Assembly (NCBI RefSeq): GCF_001990485.1
Contig: NZ_LBFC01000022.1
Span: 1-64,000, forward strand
DNA: 64,000 bases
From: Thermosipho affectus
GTDB taxonomy: Bacteria > Thermotogota > Thermotogae > Thermotogales > Fervidobacteriaceae
Reading direction: 5' to 3'
Made by a program: the position numbers and the translations under genes. Of the stretch, positions 28,569 to 61,481 are shown piece after piece (position 1 is the stretch's first letter; each line of letters opens with the position of its first letter). The notes below the pieces were generated by a model. It had not been told where the DNA came from. It saw only the letters and a list, made by a program, of their open reading frames with translations, and searched no databases.

Positions 28569-28578
28569 GATAGTGTAA

Positions 28579-28609
28579 CCTTTAATTTGGTCCAGTGAGG
28601 CCAAAAAGG
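28579..28609 (+). promoter_or_regulatory. PyrR-binding RNA element in the purE leader
   Basis: The RNA folds as lower stem CCUUU/AAAGG, a 5' bulge AAU, upper stem UUGG/CCAA and the loop region UCCAGUGAGG. This matches the PyrR-binding consensus (ARUCCNGNGAGGYU) and resembles Bacillus pyr leaders. The loop arm CAGUGAGGCCA can pair with UGGCUUCUG of the terminator downstream (with a two-base bulge) to form an antiterminator, so binding of PyrR would favour termination. Confidence 0.82.
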
Positions 28610-28662
28610 AGATGAGAAAATGTCTTTAATTTTAGTTTTTTTAGGAATTAAATATGAATATT

Positions 28663-28701
28663 GGCTTCTGCCGTTCTTACGGTAGAGGCCTTTTGTTTTT
28701 T
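28663..28701 (+). terminator. Attenuator terminator in the purE leader
   Basis: Stem GGCTTCTGCCG/CGGTAGAGGCC (11 pairs, two G-U type) with loop TTCTTA and then TTTTGTTTTTT. It stands between the PyrR element and the purE start. Confidence 0.9.
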
Positions 28702-55455: not shown

Positions 55456-55502
55456 TTTTTCAACCTCCTTTTATATGAAAAATAAATTGTTTTTAATATT
55501 TA

Positions 55503-55820
55503 GGAGTGGAGCGGTAAGCCGGATTCTGTTGCTGGAGGCATCTATCTTGGGAATTTGTTACCAAATTCCTCGAGCGGTCTACCCGGGCTAGTGGGCGGGC
55601 CACCCAAGCCCTGCTTGACCTTGCTCCAGGTAGGGGTTGCCAAGCGTATGGATTACTCCATACCTGGTGAGCTCTTACCTCACCGTTCCACCCTTACCAT
55701 ATAGGTGGTCTTCTTCTCTATGGCCCTGTCCAGGGATTACTCCCTCCGGACGTTATCCGGTACCTTGCCCATGGAGTCCGGACTTTCCTCGGCAAGTGCC
55801 GCGCCTCCACGCTCCACTCC
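55503..55820 (-). ncRNA. rnpB: RNase P RNA (bacterial type A)
   Basis: On the minus strand the ends pair (GGAGTGGAGCG with CGCTCCACTCC), giving helix P1. The universal core GAGGAAAGTCCGGAC lies at 55776-55790 near the 5' end, and the 3' core reads AGAATCCGGCTTACCG. It matures the 5' ends of tRNAs. Its GC content is far above the rest of the window, as expected for a structured RNA in a thermophile. Ends are set by P1 and may be off by a few bases. Confidence 0.96.
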
Positions 55821-55845
55821 AGTTTGTCATATTTTCATAATTTTA

Positions 55846-55854
55846 TGATAAAAT
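55846..55854 (+). promoter_or_regulatory. Extended -10 promoter for the ftsQ-like gene
   Basis: TGA-TAAAAT; the predicted transcription start (about 55860) coincides with the first ATG, so the message may be leaderless. It lies in the 39 bases between the diverging rnpB and ftsQ-like genes. Confidence 0.6.
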
Positions 55855-55859
55855 AGTTT

Positions 55860-56342
55860 ATGATGTTTGATAAAAAGATTATATTTTTGTGGAGCGTATT
55901 ATTCATCTTTTTTTTGTTTTTCTATTATCCAAAAAGTAATTTAAATTATGTCGAGGAGTCTAATAACGTCCCTAGGTTTATTTTACCATATGAAGATAAT
56001 TTGTGGATAGTTTCCTCAAATGGTAAAATAATTGACATAGTAGATAATTATAAAGTATTTTCTTCTTTGCCTGTGATTGTGATTCCTATAGATGAAATAG
56101 ATTATTTTAGAGGGAAGGTTAGTGAAAAATATTTGAAAAATCTATCTTTTGGTATACCTAACTTTGTGTATGAAATAAATTTTGTTGAAAATTACATGGT
56201 ATTAAACAATAATTCAAAAGTGTTTTTTAATGAGAATTTTGATTTTAAAGTTTATTTTGAAAAGTTGAAAATAGTGTATAAATATATTGAACCAAACGAG
56301 GTTTATTATTTTTCTAATGATAGGTTAATAAAGGCGAGGTGA
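55860..56342 (+). CDS. Short FtsQ/DivIB-like membrane protein
   Basis: A 160-residue protein (or 159 from the second ATG at 55863) with one N-terminal membrane helix (6-22, FLWSVLFIFFLFFYY) and a soluble domain outside the cell. LWIVSSNGKIIDIVDNY, then SSLPVIVIP and the late part VYFEKLKIVYKYIEPNE, YYFSNDRLIKAR resemble the beta domain of FtsQ (deKG, LPvi, KLekL motifs), but the POTRA domain normally before it is missing. It stands directly before ftsA and ftsZ, the standard ftsQ place. No ribosome binding site precedes it. Identity is inferred. Confidence 0.65.
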   Translation: MMFDKKIIFLWSVLFIFFLFFYYPKSNLNYVEESNNVPRFILPYEDNLWIVSSNGKIIDIVDNYKVFSSLPVIVIPIDEIDYFRGKVSEKYLKNLSFGIPNFVYEINFVENYMVLNNNSKVFFNENFDFKVYFEKLKIVYKYIEPNEVYYFSNDRLIKAR

Positions 56343-56347
56343 AATAT

Positions 56348-57613
56348 ATGGGTAAATGGGATCCTGTAACTTCTATAGATATAGGTAATCATAGTATAAA
56401 AGGAGTTGTGATTAATTATTCTAATGATGGGAAAGAAGTTATTGCATATTCAACCATTAAGTCCAAAGGAATTGAATCAGGAGAAATAAAGGATGTTGTT
56501 GCGCTTAATGAATCTATGAATGTTTTGATTGAAAATTTGGAGGAACAAATTGGAAAAAATTTAAAAGGAGATTTTTTGGTCTCTTCAAGTGTGGGGAATT
56601 TCAAGCTTCAGGAGATTAGGGAAGAATTAATACTTACCGAATCTGAAAGTTCTGTTGCCATTAATGAGAAACACGTAGAAGAGTTGAAAAGTTTGATTTT
56701 AGGAACTATACTTGGGGATAATAATAATGTTTATCATTCATATATAAAGAAATATATTTTGGATGAAAAGAAAATAGTTTTTAATCCTGTTAACATGAAT
56801 GCGAAAAAGTTAGAAGGTGTTTATTCATTTATAATTGGTGACAATATGCATAGAAGTATTGTAGATTATGCCACAAGGGATACAATAGGAGAGGCAGAAT
56901 ATTTCATATCTCCTATTTCAGCGGCAGAAGCTGTTTTGACTAGTTTTGAAAAGGATAGTGGAGTTGTACATGTGGATTTGGGACACTATTCAACTGTGGT
57001 TACCATATTCTTGAACAACGCACCTATAAAATTTGTGAGAATTCAAAAATCGATTAGGCATGTTGTATTAGACATAGCGAGGGTTTTGAAGACATCTATA
57101 AACGAAGCAGAAAGACTTTTAAAGATTTATGGAATAGCTGTTTTTGAAAATATTGAACCAAGTGTTATAGAATACAAGGCGTTGGATAACAGAACGAATT
57201 TAGAGGTAAATAGAGAACTTCTTGCAAGAATAATTTATGCAAGATTAAGGGAAATTTTCTTGAACGTTAGAAAAATTTATAGAGATGCAATGTTAGATTA
57301 TAAAGAATTTAAAGATTTGGGAATACCAGGTGGTGTGGTTTTGACTGGTGGAGGTGCTAAAATTTCTAGGATTACAGATGTGGCCTCCGATGTGTTGAAA
57401 TGTTCTGTGAGAGTTGGAAGCTTTGTAAATACAGATGAATTTATCATTGAGGAGAATGAACAAATATTGTCTGATCCGCAATTTTCAGCGGTATTTGGAA
57501 ATGTTTTGCAATTTGAAAAAGAAGAGAGTTCAGAATTTATATCCAGTAAGAATAAATCAAAAAGTTCTTTTGGATTTGGTGAATTTTTTAGAAAATTGTT
57601 TAAGGGGGAATAA
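56348..57613 (+). CDS. ftsA: Cell division protein FtsA
   Basis: The ATG at 56348 after GAGGTGAAATAT gives 421 residues. It is an actin-like ATPase that ties FtsZ to the membrane: SIDIGNHSIKGVV (phosphate 1), VVHVDLGHYSTVVTIF (phosphate 2), GGVVLTGGGAKI (adenosine), and a C-terminal amphipathic helix (FGEFFRKLFKG). Domain 1C is present (KSKGIESGEIKDV). It overlaps nothing but follows the FtsQ-like gene at once. Confidence 0.93.
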   Translation: MGKWDPVTSIDIGNHSIKGVVINYSNDGKEVIAYSTIKSKGIESGEIKDVVALNESMNVLIENLEEQIGKNLKGDFLVSSSVGNFKLQEIREELILTESESSVAINEKHVEELKSLILGTILGDNNNVYHSYIKKYILDEKKIVFNPVNMNAKKLEGVYSFIIGDNMHRSIVDYATRDTIGEAEYFISPISAAEAVLTSFEKDSGVVHVDLGHYSTVVTIFLNNAPIKFVRIQKSIRHVVLDIARVLKTSINEAERLLKIYGIAVFENIEPSVIEYKALDNRTNLEVNRELLARIIYARLREIFLNVRKIYRDAMLDYKEFKDLGIPGGVVLTGGGAKISRITDVASDVLKCSVRVGSFVNTDEFIIEENEQILSDPQFSAVFGNVLQFEKEESSEFISSKNKSKSSFGFGEFFRKLFKGE

Positions 57614-57615
57614 AT

Positions 57616-58671
57616 ATGGCATTTAATGTAAAAAAAGAAGAGAGTTTTTCAAAAATAATGCCTGTTATAAAAGTTGTTGGTGTTGGAGGAGCAGGTTGTA
57701 ATGCCGTGAATAGAATGGTTGAGTCTGGTATAGATGATGTGAAGTTTATTGCCGTTAATACAGATGCACAAGTTCTTGAAGTAAGTAAAGCGGATGAAAT
57801 TGTGCAAATTGGTGAAAAATTAACCAAAGGTTTAGGAGCTGGTGGTAATCCAAAAGTTGGTGAAGAGGCAGCACTTGAAGATAAAAAGAAGTTAGAAGAA
57901 ATATTAAGGGGAACTGATATGCTCTTTATTACAGCAGGTTTTGGAGGCGGTACTGGTACTGGTGCAGCTCCAGTTATAGCAGAAATTGCTAAAAATTTGG
58001 GGATTTTAACTGTTGCAGTTGTTACTACACCGTTTTATTTTGAAGGTGATCCAAGGTGGAAAGCGGCAATGCAGGGAATTAGAAAAATACATCAACACGT
58101 AGATACATTAATAAAGATAAGTAATAATAAGTTATTGGAGGAGTTTTCTTCAGATATAACTTTTGTTGATGCTTTCAAAAAGGCAGATGAAACATTGTAT
58201 CAAGGTATAAAAGGTATTTCCGAATTAATTACCAAAAGGGGCATTATAAATTTAGATTTTGCCGATATTGAATCTGTAATGAGAAATGCGGGAGCAGCAA
58301 TGCTTGGAATAGGTGTTGGTAAAGGTGAAAATAGAGCTACAATTGCAGCGAGAAATGCGCTTGAAAGTAAATTAGTTGAACATCCTATTGAAAATGCAAA
58401 TTCAATAATCTTAAATATAACAGCATCTAATAGTTTTAAATTACATGAGATGCAGGAAGCTGCTGTTATAATAAGACAAACATGCAGTGAGAATGCAGAT
58501 CTCAAACTTGGTATAAATGTTGATCCTGAAATGCCTGAAGATGAAGTAAGAGTGACTTTGATTGCAACAGGTCTTGAGAGAGAAGAAGACTTTTTATACA
58601 GTCAAGAAGATATTCCTGCTTTGTTTAAATTTGGGTTGGAGGTAATGGGAAATGATGGAAAAAAAGTATAA
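57616..58671 (+). CDS. ftsZ: Cell division protein FtsZ
   Basis: The 351-residue tubulin-like GTPase has KVVGVGGAGCNAVNRM, AVNTDAQ, the GTP signature FGGGTGTGAAPVIAE and the T7 loop NLDFADIESVM. The C-terminal peptide EDIPALFKFG binds FtsA. The linker before it is very short. It starts two bases after ftsA. Confidence 0.97.
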   Translation: MAFNVKKEESFSKIMPVIKVVGVGGAGCNAVNRMVESGIDDVKFIAVNTDAQVLEVSKADEIVQIGEKLTKGLGAGGNPKVGEEAALEDKKKLEEILRGTDMLFITAGFGGGTGTGAAPVIAEIAKNLGILTVAVVTTPFYFEGDPRWKAAMQGIRKIHQHVDTLIKISNNKLLEEFSSDITFVDAFKKADETLYQGIKGISELITKRGIINLDFADIESVMRNAGAAMLGIGVGKGENRATIAARNALESKLVEHPIENANSIILNITASNSFKLHEMQEAAVIIRQTCSENADLKLGINVDPEMPEDEVRVTLIATGLEREEDFLYSQEDIPALFKFGLEVMGNDGKKV

Positions 58672-60349
58672 ACGATTGGGGGATATTTTAATTGATAGGG
58701 GGATAATTACAAAAGAAGATTTGGAATATGCATTACAGGTTCAAAAAAAGACAAGAAAGCCAATTGGAGAAGTTTTAGTTGAATTGGGATTTTGTACTTG
58801 GAATCAGATAGTAAAAGCATTGTCTAAGCAGTATGAAGTACCTTATTTTGCCGAAAAGCCCAAAGTAGATCCAACATTGAATTTGAATATGAAAAGAGAA
58901 TTGATGGAGGAATTAAGGGCAGTTCCAATAAAGCTTGATGGAGATAAAATAGTAGTTGTTACAGATAACGTATATAACATTTCTTTGATAAAAAGAAGGT
59001 TGAAGTTTCTTTTTGGGAAAGAGATAGAAGTGTATCTTATAGCACCTGATATGTTTGAAGAAGTTTTAATGGAAGTTTCATCGGAAAAAAAGATGGAGTT
59101 TGAAGTTTCAGAATCATTATATGAGAATGAAGAAGGAGAAGAAGAGGAAGAAAATTTGGGTGAAATAGAAAATGAAGATACCCCCGTTGTTAGATTAGTA
59201 AACAATTTATTAACACATGCTATTGAATTAGATGCAAGCGATATTCATATAGAACCTACTGGGAAGAGAAATGTTGTTGTTAGATATAGAATTGATGGAG
59301 TTTTAAAGAAAATAACGGAATATCCAAAAAGTAGTCATGGTTCTGTTGTGGCAAGGATAAAAATTCTATCAAAACTTGATATCACTGAAAGACGAATACC
59401 ACAGGATGGCAAGTTTTTTATGAATTTAAATTCTGAACAGTATGACTTTAGGGTTTCCACGATGCCGTCTGTTAATGGAGAAAAGGTTGTCATGAGAATT
59501 TTAAAAGTTTCTCAATCAAATAAAAAATTAGAAGAATTGGGCTATAGTGATTATAATTATGAAAGAATTAAGCAATTGATAACTCATCCATATGGAATTA
59601 TATTGGTTACTGGTCCAACTGGTAGTGGAAAAAGTACTACATTGGTTGGAATAATTAATTCCCTTAACGATGAAGCTGTAAATATAGTTACAGCAGAAGA
59701 TCCAGTAGAATATACTATTGAAGGTGTCACGCAATGTCAAGTAAATCCGGAAATAGGTCTTACATTTGCAAAGTATCTAAGAGCCTTTTTAAGACAAGAT
59801 CCAGATATCATAATGGTCGGTGAAATTAGGGATAAGGAAACAGCAAATTTGGCTGTTGAGGCATCACTAACTGGGCATTTAGTTTTATCAACGTTGCATA
59901 CAAATACTGCAGCAGGTGCAATTGATAGATTGCTGAATATGGGGATTGATCCAAGTCTTATCAGTTCTTCATTGATTGGAGTAATTGGCCAAAGATTGGT
60001 GAGAAGAGTTTGTAATAATTGTGCAAGAGAGGTATCCCTTGAGGGAGAGTATGCAGAATTTGCTAGAAAGCTTTTTCCTGAGATACCTTTAAAACAAAAA
60101 GTAGCAGTGGGATGTGAAGCTTGTAATAATACTGGGTATAAAGGTAGAACCGCTATTAATGAAGTTTTAATAGTAAATGATGAATTAAAATATTTAATAA
60201 ATAATAGGGTATCACTTTCAGAGATAACAAAGGCTGCAAAGCGGGGAGGGATGCGTACTTTATTTGAGGATGGTCTTTACAAAGTTTTGAATGGAGAAAC
60301 AACTCTTGAGGAAATTATAAGGGTGACAGGTGGAATGTATGAGGAATGA
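58652..60349 (+). CDS. pilB: Type II secretion / type IV pilus assembly ATPase (GspE/PilB family)
   Basis: This 565-residue protein overlaps ftsZ by 20 bases. Residues 5-150 are the GspE N-terminal (MshEN-like) domain, then an acidic linker. The core shows DASDIHIEP, Walker A GPTGSGKSTTL, the Asp box AEDPVEYT, Walker B DIIMVGEIRDKETA, the His box LSTLHTNTAAGAIDRL and a zinc tetracysteine (CNNC and CEAC). It powers pilus or pseudopilus assembly. Placement behind ftsZ is unusual, and no other pilus genes are here. Confidence 0.92.
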   Translation: MMEKKYKRLGDILIDRGIITKEDLEYALQVQKKTRKPIGEVLVELGFCTWNQIVKALSKQYEVPYFAEKPKVDPTLNLNMKRELMEELRAVPIKLDGDKIVVVTDNVYNISLIKRRLKFLFGKEIEVYLIAPDMFEEVLMEVSSEKKMEFEVSESLYENEEGEEEEENLGEIENEDTPVVRLVNNLLTHAIELDASDIHIEPTGKRNVVVRYRIDGVLKKITEYPKSSHGSVVARIKILSKLDITERRIPQDGKFFMNLNSEQYDFRVSTMPSVNGEKVVMRILKVSQSNKKLEELGYSDYNYERIKQLITHPYGIILVTGPTGSGKSTTLVGIINSLNDEAVNIVTAEDPVEYTIEGVTQCQVNPEIGLTFAKYLRAFLRQDPDIIMVGEIRDKETANLAVEASLTGHLVLSTLHTNTAAGAIDRLLNMGIDPSLISSSLIGVIGQRLVRRVCNNCAREVSLEGEYAEFARKLFPEIPLKQKVAVGCEACNNTGYKGRTAINEVLIVNDELKYLINNRVSLSEITKAAKRGGMRTLFEDGLYKVLNGETTLEEIIRVTGGMYEE

Positions 60350-61481
60350 AGAATATAAGAAAAAATTGGAGGAAAAGGAAAAAAAACTAAAAGAAGAAAT
60401 TCAAGGTTATAGAAAAAGAAGTATTTATATACTTTTTATAAATATAGTAGTTGTTCTTGTTATTTTTTTCTTGTTCAAAAGTTTGAATGTAAAAAATCCA
60501 AATTTAGTGAATGGATTTCAGGTTATTATTAAACATAAAACTGAGTTTTTTTCCAACGAAGAGATTGATGCAAAGGTTTATCTTATAAATACAAGAAATG
60601 CTTTGCAAAGTTTTGTGATTAATAATTTCCGTTTTAAAATTTTAAAAGAAAATATCCCTATATATAATTTCTACTACAATTCAAGTGTAAATTCTAATGT
60701 TGATAAACTTTCAAGTGTCTTGGTTTTTGATCTAAAGCGAGAAGTCACTATTAAGAATTTGACTGCTGGAATTTATAAAATTGTAGTTAATTTAAACTTA
60801 AATGGAAAAGATATAGAAGTTGAAAATACTTTCAATGTCAAAGAAGAAATATTAAAAGAAATATCTATGGATCCATTTTATATAGTTGGTGAAAAAATTT
60901 ATCCACAAATTGTTATTGAAAATAAGACATCTACATCTGTGGAACTTAATGTAGAATCTTTAGAGTGGATTTTAGGAGGTAAATCATTTAAGGATATAAA
61001 TTTAGGAAAATACAAACTTTTTAGTGGTGAAAGACTTTTTTTGGAATCTTCAAAACCATTTTTAGCCGAAAAAACGGGAATATTTACTTTAAAGTGTAGC
61101 TTAGTTATTAACGGACAGCTAAATGAGATTTTAAATAAATTTTTGGTTGTAAATGAGGTAGAAAGAAATTTAGAAGATTTAAAATTAAGAATATATTCCG
61201 ATGAATATTTGAAGAAAAACTCACCTGTTAAATTTTCTTTTGAGATAAATAATCTCAAAAATAAAGAAAGGTATATTTTGATAAGAAAGGTAAATGTGTT
61301 AGTTCCAGAAGAAAATTATTCGTATGAAGTTAGTAATATGAAGGTTTTTTTAAACAAATATGGTGGGGTAACTTTATTTGAACTTCCTTTAATGTTTGAA
61401 AATAGTGGAAAGCACACGATAATTTTCAGATTAGTTTCCGACAATGAGATTTCGAAAGTTTTAACTTTAAATGTTCCGTGA
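60339..61481 (+). CDS. Membrane-anchored protein with Ig-like beta domains
   Basis: The ATG at 60339 after AGGTGG gives 380 residues, overlapping pilB by 11 bases. A charged coiled-coil start (EEYKKKLEEKEKKLKEEIQ) is followed by one membrane helix (about 27-44) and then two or three extracytoplasmic beta-rich domains resembling BsuPI/CARDB-like folds (FFSNEEIDAKVYLINTRN, PFYIVGEKIYPQIVIENKT, NSPVKFSFEINNLKNKERY). The function is unknown. Coupling with pilB suggests a role in the cell envelope or pilus system. The stop codon forms part of the next promoter. Confidence 0.75.
   Translation: MRNEEYKKKLEEKEKKLKEEIQGYRKRSIYILFINIVVVLVIFFLFKSLNVKNPNLVNGFQVIIKHKTEFFSNEEIDAKVYLINTRNALQSFVINNFRFKILKENIPIYNFYYNSSVNSNVDKLSSVLVFDLKREVTIKNLTAGIYKIVVNLNLNGKDIEVENTFNVKEEILKEISMDPFYIVGEKIYPQIVIENKTSTSVELNVESLEWILGGKSFKDINLGKYKLFSGERLFLESSKPFLAEKTGIFTLKCSLVINGQLNEILNKFLVVNEVERNLEDLKLRIYSDEYLKKNSPVKFSFEINNLKNKERYILIRKVNVLVPEENYSYEVSNMKVFLNKYGGVTLFELPLMFENSGKHTIIFRLVSDNEISKVLTLNVP

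Follow-up and report, generated by a model that had tools for sequence, protein, structure and literature searches.

The gene directly in front of ftsA and ftsZ in the window (the whole stretch of 64,000 nucleotides analysed here) is most probably the FtsQ of its genome, with an outer part that consists of the beta domain alone and derives from a two-domain ancestor with a POTRA and a beta domain; we put the probability of this reading at about 0.9. The window protein is a POTRA-less variant descended from FtsQ and not a canonical two-domain FtsQ, and presumably functions in cell division. Short FtsQ proteins of this kind are widespread in Thermotogota and not the oddity of one species.

An earlier sequence-only reading had described a protein of about 160 residues in the ftsQ position, with a single membrane helix, a beta-domain-like tail and no POTRA domain, and all of these points were borne out. 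The ORF encodes 160 amino acids, compared with the 240-280 residues which that reading gave for canonical FtsQ, and adjoins ftsA-ftsZ on the 5' side, which is the dcw position. Its stop codon TGA (56340-56342) shares bases with the Shine-Dalgarno stretch of ftsA. Both the AlphaFold model and the hydropathy show one hydrophobic helix at about residues 5-24 with four residues ahead of it, followed by an outer domain of ~125 residues. Canonical FtsQ/DivIB, with the domains POTRA_1 (Pfam: PF08478) and FtsQ_DivIB_C (Pfam: PF03799), has the same position before ftsA-ftsZ and, with the N-terminus of the window protein probably inside, the same topology, a single N-terminal membrane helix with a short tail inside and a large part outside. 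A search with the single sequence found a homologue in 26 of 61 genomes, its own genome included. In all 21 pairs among seven species of genera g1 and g4 the pN/pS ratio of ftsQ was below 1 (0.27-0.75, with silent sites near saturation in many of the pairs), so it is kept as a protein-coding gene. The coordinates are collected in the table below.

Table. Positions of ftsQ, its parts and its neighbours in the window
Feature	Position	Strand	Basis and remarks
POTRA-less ftsQ (DUF4894), 160 aa	55860..56342	+	ORF list, DUF4894 match, predicted fold; ATG 55860, alternative in-frame ATG 55863
Membrane helix, residues 5-22, N-terminus probably inside	55872..55925	+	AlphaFold helix; hydropathy 6-24; orientation from the preceding lysines
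FtsQ/DivIB-type beta domain, residues 36-160	55965..56339	+	VIA-align to 6h9o_A; hhalign to canonical FtsQ
Presumed extended -10 (TGATAAAAT) of the ftsQ-ftsA-ftsZ operon	55846..55854	+	TGnTAAAAT kept in genus g1
rnpB (RNase P RNA, class A)	55499..55820	-	Rfam RF00010, 280.5 bits; divergent from ftsQ, 39 nt between
ftsA	56348..57613	+	TIGR01174, E 5.3e-54; ORF listed from GTG 56339; ATG 56348 (start picked by eye) follows GAGGTG
ftsZ	57616..58671	+	TIGR00065, E 7.4e-117

Two further features of the window were recorded, a 383-aa protein at 60330-61481, two genes past ftsZ, that has one hydrophobic segment near its start and matches no family over a cut-off, and a PyrR-binding attenuator (RF00515, 64.2 bits) at 28575-28698.

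The window protein matches the Pfam family DUF4894 (Pfam: PF16235) with an E-value of 1.7e-8 and 35.3 bits, over the curated cut-off of 28, and its residues 41-158 align to positions 1-120 of the 122 profile positions. The Thermotoga maritima protein is also over the cut-off. Pfam gives no function for DUF4894, and its name was not found in the text of the literature searched; we read it as the FtsQ beta domain. The AlphaFold2 model, predicted from the window protein together with 17 Thermotogota homologues, has a pLDDT of 89.3 and a pTM of 0.73. Its comparison with the FtsQ beta domain had been set beforehand as a check, and no unrelated fold was found. Among the Foldseek matches in the PDB, ranks 1-8 are all FtsQ/DivIB, with E-values from 6.4e-3 to 0.25 and none below 0.001. 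VIA-align gave the eight FtsQ/DivIB rows Z-scores of 5.1-8.7, against 3.1 for the first unrelated row. The alignment to 6h9o_A (Z 8.7, 3.5 Å, 113 aligned residues) places model residues 34-160 on residues 124-256 of the FtsQ chain, so that the likeness extends over the whole length of the beta domain, and the final strands of the window FtsQ are predicted at 148-152 and 155-158.

Comparison of profiles with hhalign points to the same family. The 18 proteins of the window family matched 22 canonical FtsQ proteins of other phyla with a probability of 85.8 and an E-value of 5.3e-6, and window residues 32-147 were aligned onto the end of the POTRA and the beta domain. Within this canonical set, POTRA_1 matches 19 of the 22 proteins and FtsQ_DivIB_C 14. 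When 66 short proteins from five families were pooled, the match to canonical FtsQ reached 94.7 (E 6.3e-8), with 0.2 for the reversed profile and at most 0.3 in 20 column shuffles; the controls of 14 separate groups stayed at or below 1.8. Single families match weakly: f2 with 12% (E 0.0025), f8 with 4% (E 0.011) and f9, whose members without a DUF4894 match were assigned from position, length and helix only, with 1.4-2.7% (E 0.017-0.038), and the scores of f8 and part of f9 barely exceed those of their own shuffles. The direct profile match between the window family and families f5 and f7 is also weak (19%, E 0.0012). Even at E 1, FtsQ_DivIB_C does not match the window protein, so the Pfam FtsQ models miss it; a PDB search with the single window protein gave one chance match, and when 94 proteins were searched as a profile, FtsQ was not matched at E<=10. 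The link to FtsQ is therefore visible only by profile-profile and fold comparison.

The bridge between the short proteins and canonical FtsQ is found in the basal family f7, where POTRA_1 and DUF4894 match one and the same frame in two genomes. In G048 POTRA_1 scores 24.1 bits (over the cut-off of 23) and DUF4894 25.9 (under the cut-off of 28); in G054 both are under their cut-offs. The f5/f7 proteins align to canonical FtsQ across both domains (98.5, E 1.5e-15). That a different small bitopic envelope protein took the ftsQ position, with a beta domain resembling FtsQ by convergence, is highly improbable: the eight best structural rows are FtsQ/DivIB and lie far over the rest, the profile-profile match has clean controls, the basal relatives carry both matches in one protein, and the synteny with gyrB described below is common to the POTRA-bearing f5 and to POTRA-less families, which together outweigh the missing direct Pfam FtsQ match, the Foldseek E-values above 0.001 and the 22 genomes among 101 of the class that have no DUF4894 match at E<=0.001.

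In the window protein, POTRA_1 has no match at E<=1, and the segment between helix and beta domain gives no signal against canonical POTRA. About 12-15 residues join the two in the AlphaFold model, so there is no room for a POTRA. The sequence-only reading would have been contradicted by a full-length ftsQ elsewhere in the genome, and none was detected, with no FtsQ_DivIB_C match at E<=1 in the whole window genome. This also speaks against a split of the FtsQ function over two genes, in which another protein would supply the POTRA. In favour of a split, POTRA domains also occur in Omp85-type proteins. The gene bamA is reported in Thermotogae (available text of PMC8871954). The sole POTRA_1 match of the window genome lies in a 497-aa frame on contig C15, but at E 0.22 it is below the cut-off and spans 35 of 69 positions. 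Mutations in the E. coli POTRA affect septal localisation, probably through FtsK (available text of PMC3152878), and FtsK/SpoIIIE (Pfam: PF01580) was found in 0 of 61 Thermotogota genomes at E<=1e-5, while the control matched in 8 of 14 known genomes; the task itself would have lost its partner here, and we regard the split as very unlikely. For the beta-domain-only FtsQ, the absence of FtsK may have freed the POTRA, but it does not alone explain the loss, because the searched genomes of f5, f6, f7 and f10 are also without FtsK.

Of 101 genomes of the class, sampled from a larger group, 79 have a DUF4894 match. An ORF ends beside the ftsA start in 91 of the 100 genomes with retrieved loci; three of these, all from f5 and alike, were dropped, one of them having been tested and identified as dTMP kinase, which leaves 88 of 100 with an ftsQ-like ORF before ftsA. 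In f5 the DUF4894 gene is found apart from ftsA but directly behind gyrB, for all seven f5 proteins. Overall, gyrB is the immediate upstream neighbour of ftsQ for 75 of the 95 Thermotogota proteins examined, in some cases overlapping it (e.g. L102:3159-5069), and in every family except f1 (0/18), which is the family of the window and includes records titled Thermosipho and Fervidobacterium, and f7 (0/2). The gene before ftsQ was at first taken for RNase J from its last residues; this was rejected and the gene identified as gyrB. All nine loci of genera g1, g4 and g5 have rnpB upstream of ftsQ in divergent orientation, compared with 0 of 5 other scanned loci. As ftsQ directly follows gyrB in most other families, the rnpB-ftsQ arrangement of the window is probably derived.

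The POTRA domain is clear in f5 and f7, where the segment matches canonical POTRA with 93.4% and 96.5%, and probably present in f6 and f10, judged from full-length sequence matches, although the segment alone is weak there, within or near the shuffle scores. No POTRA was detected in f1, f2, f3, f8, f9 and f11. Family f4 has ~80 residues between helix and beta domain, which match neither canonical POTRA nor f5/f7 nor f6+f10 significantly. In f11 (the Kosmotogaceae records) about 50-60 residues lie between the two, with no POTRA match. A second AlphaFold model, of one of these f11 proteins with the longer linker, has a pLDDT of 80, with the linker mostly below 60 and without a helix. FtsQ is its best match (Z 8.0), and seven of the eight FtsQ/DivIB rows cover only the beta domain of the known structure; the eighth (8hhf_Q) spans model residues 2-212 at 7.3 Å.

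A tree of FtsA, with other phyla as the root, places f7 at the base and f4 with f6 and f10 (96/88); f1, f2, f3, f8, f9 and f11 come together in a single clade (86/90, a branch without a star). Basal f5 and f7 have a clear POTRA together with the same beta domain, so the POTRA was lost within the phylum, once in the clade of f1, f2, f3, f8, f9 and f11 and perhaps a second time in f4. The AU test against a single clade of all POTRA-negative rows gave p 0.04.

The two contacts of FtsQ known from E. coli were also considered from the side of the partners. In FtsQ/DivIB, FtsB is bound by the last beta strand, which meets the FtsB segment 64-87. In E. coli, a second hot spot, around R75 of the POTRA, faces FtsL, and FtsB residues 64-87 are the only part of FtsB that binds FtsQ (available text of PMC6134095). 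The window protein, having no POTRA, is without the domain of the R75 hot spot. We took as FtsL-position protein the product of the gene between rsmH and the penicillin-binding protein gene; in the window genome it has no division-related Pfam match. A strand-like C-terminal tail motif G..[FY] is present in all seven genomes of f5, f6, f7 and f10 and in 0 of 43 genomes of the remaining families, a POTRA-negative set that includes three f4 rows and G035 (probably the wrong ORF), none of which was dropped. The motif was picked after inspecting the sequences, and the difference in length, 57-73 residues after the helix in f5, f6, f7 and f10 compared with 34-56 elsewhere, is independent of it. The pattern recurs in E. 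coli FtsB (GETFYRL, residues 81-87), within its FtsQ-binding segment. By family, the motif is found in the four with a clear or probable POTRA and lacking in the six without POTRA and in f4. An agreement between POTRA and FtsL tail in 11 of 11 families had been considered and was dropped after closer tests left f4 undecided. With f4 counted as POTRA-less, the FtsA tree gives two changes and two independent pairs, and with f4 counted as POTRA-bearing a single loss. As these are one or two independent events only, we make no statistical claim of a correlation, and since the tail trait was set per family by our own reading, the count of changes in the same way is not an independent result.

For FtsB, DivIC (Pfam: PF04977) was over the cut-off in 0 of 41 genomes (control: 7/14), and most DivIC matches in general fall on coiled coils within large proteins. 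For this reason the candidates were chosen by their synteny with a methyltransferase gene, their topology and their partial matches to DivIC. Among the 50 loci, ten had no ORF within the limits, one had a methyltransferase frame that is not whole, two f7 loci gave another gene and G039 gave a long frame merely ending in such a protein. The candidates share with FtsB/DivIC a helix and a short coiled coil, and none matches the FtsQ-binding segment of E. coli FtsB. That of G004 covers positions 3-52 of the 80 of the DivIC profile, just under the cut-off, whereas residues 11-89 of E. coli FtsB fill positions 1-79. The candidate of the window genome has 80 residues, ends after a presumed coiled coil, has no DivIC match at E<=10 and lies beside minD-minE-like and methyltransferase genes. 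This locus (L235, G000:C22), outside the window, contains minD (end only), a minE-like gene under the cut-off, a gene for a 228-aa protein without NCBIfam match, then the FtsB-like gene, a methyltransferase-like gene and ftsY. Among the other divisome genes of the genome are two FtsW/RodA/SpoVE genes and a transpeptidase (Pfam: PF00905, E 6.6e-33) two genes past rsmH.

The sequence-only reading had proposed that the short protein could show a minimal contact set for FtsQ. In that wording the proposal finds no support: the POTRA with the FtsL hot spot is gone and the best FtsB candidate of the genome is without the FtsQ-binding segment. Both partners seem to have lost their side of the known contacts, instead of keeping a core of them. 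We propose that the two-domain FtsQ kept in basal Thermotogota represents the ancestor and that, after the POTRA was lost in the lineage to f1, f2, f3, f8, f9 and f11, the short protein most likely remained the FtsQ subunit, linking FtsL/FtsB with FtsW/FtsI while its beta domain is kept near the membrane. Its partners were apparently shortened to match, the FtsL-position protein lacking the C-terminal strand motif and the FtsB candidate the FtsQ-binding segment, so FtsQ would need contacts other than the two known from E. coli. From one or two independent events only, we infer a concerted reduction of FtsQLB, with altered contacts between FtsQ and its partners. More tentatively, and with the odds somewhat against it, FtsQLB might be cut down on all sides in most sampled Thermotogota families, with POTRA, FtsL strand, FtsB segment and FtsK gone, the beta domain deprived of its known ligand and working by an undescribed contact at the membrane surface, the divisome having a lower ceiling and the basal families keeping the step before.

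There is no ribosome-binding site at ftsQ, as the sequence-only reading had said. The anti-SD duplex has -2.2 kcal/mol at either ATG, and for the best start within 75 nt the value is -2.4, the weakest of 58 window ORFs (frames of at least 150 aa, overlaps removed), followed by -4.3. Two details of that reading had to be corrected: position 55846, given as the gene start, instead opens the presumed extended -10, and the distance from the end of TAAAAT is five bases to ATG 55860 and eight to ATG 55863, not six. All four species of genus g1, which represent three distinct intergenes with one sequence shared by two species, have 39-42 nt between rnpB and ftsQ and TGnTAAAAT 7-8 nt ahead of an in-frame ATG. 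Shuffles of these three intergenes reproduce motif and spacing at 0.0008-0.0013 each. The longest frame of G001 and G002 contains the motif; translation in these two probably starts only at codon 7, an ATG. A sigma-70 two-hexamer scan reported no plus-strand promoter at ftsQ, and the conserved TGnTAAAAT is therefore the sole ground for presuming one. Leaderless transcription, which the sequence-only reading had called probable, is likewise the likeliest reading here. Given the 39 nt between the divergent genes rnpB and ftsQ (55820-55860), the presumed promoters of the two must overlap, and the two transcription units, RNase P RNA and division operon, may compete for polymerase.

A precedent for an FtsQ homologue without POTRA is the chlamydial Ct764, reported to have no identifiable POTRA, an absence which its authors inferred from unconserved POTRA residues and BLAST; in the window FtsQ, the stretch itself, between helix and beta domain, is absent altogether. 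Chlamydia is without FtsZ, whereas the window genome has FtsA and FtsZ (for Chlamydia, available text of PMC4643143). In the available part of PMC8871954, ftsQ and ftsL are described as assigned partly by position and poorly conserved, and Thermotogae are omitted from the tree. Our search of titles and abstract starts found no description of a POTRA-less Thermotogota FtsQ.

These results propose a function for a Pfam family without one, DUF4894, and for the gene before ftsA in Thermotogota, which had no assignment. The phylum offers a natural deletion series of FtsQ, from two-domain through intermediate to beta domain only, and as proteins of thermophiles the members of this series should suit structure work. 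Of most interest is that FtsL and FtsB were apparently trimmed in parallel. If this is true, the question becomes what the FtsQ beta domain does without the known FtsB contact, which would bear on the control of FtsWI by FtsQLB.
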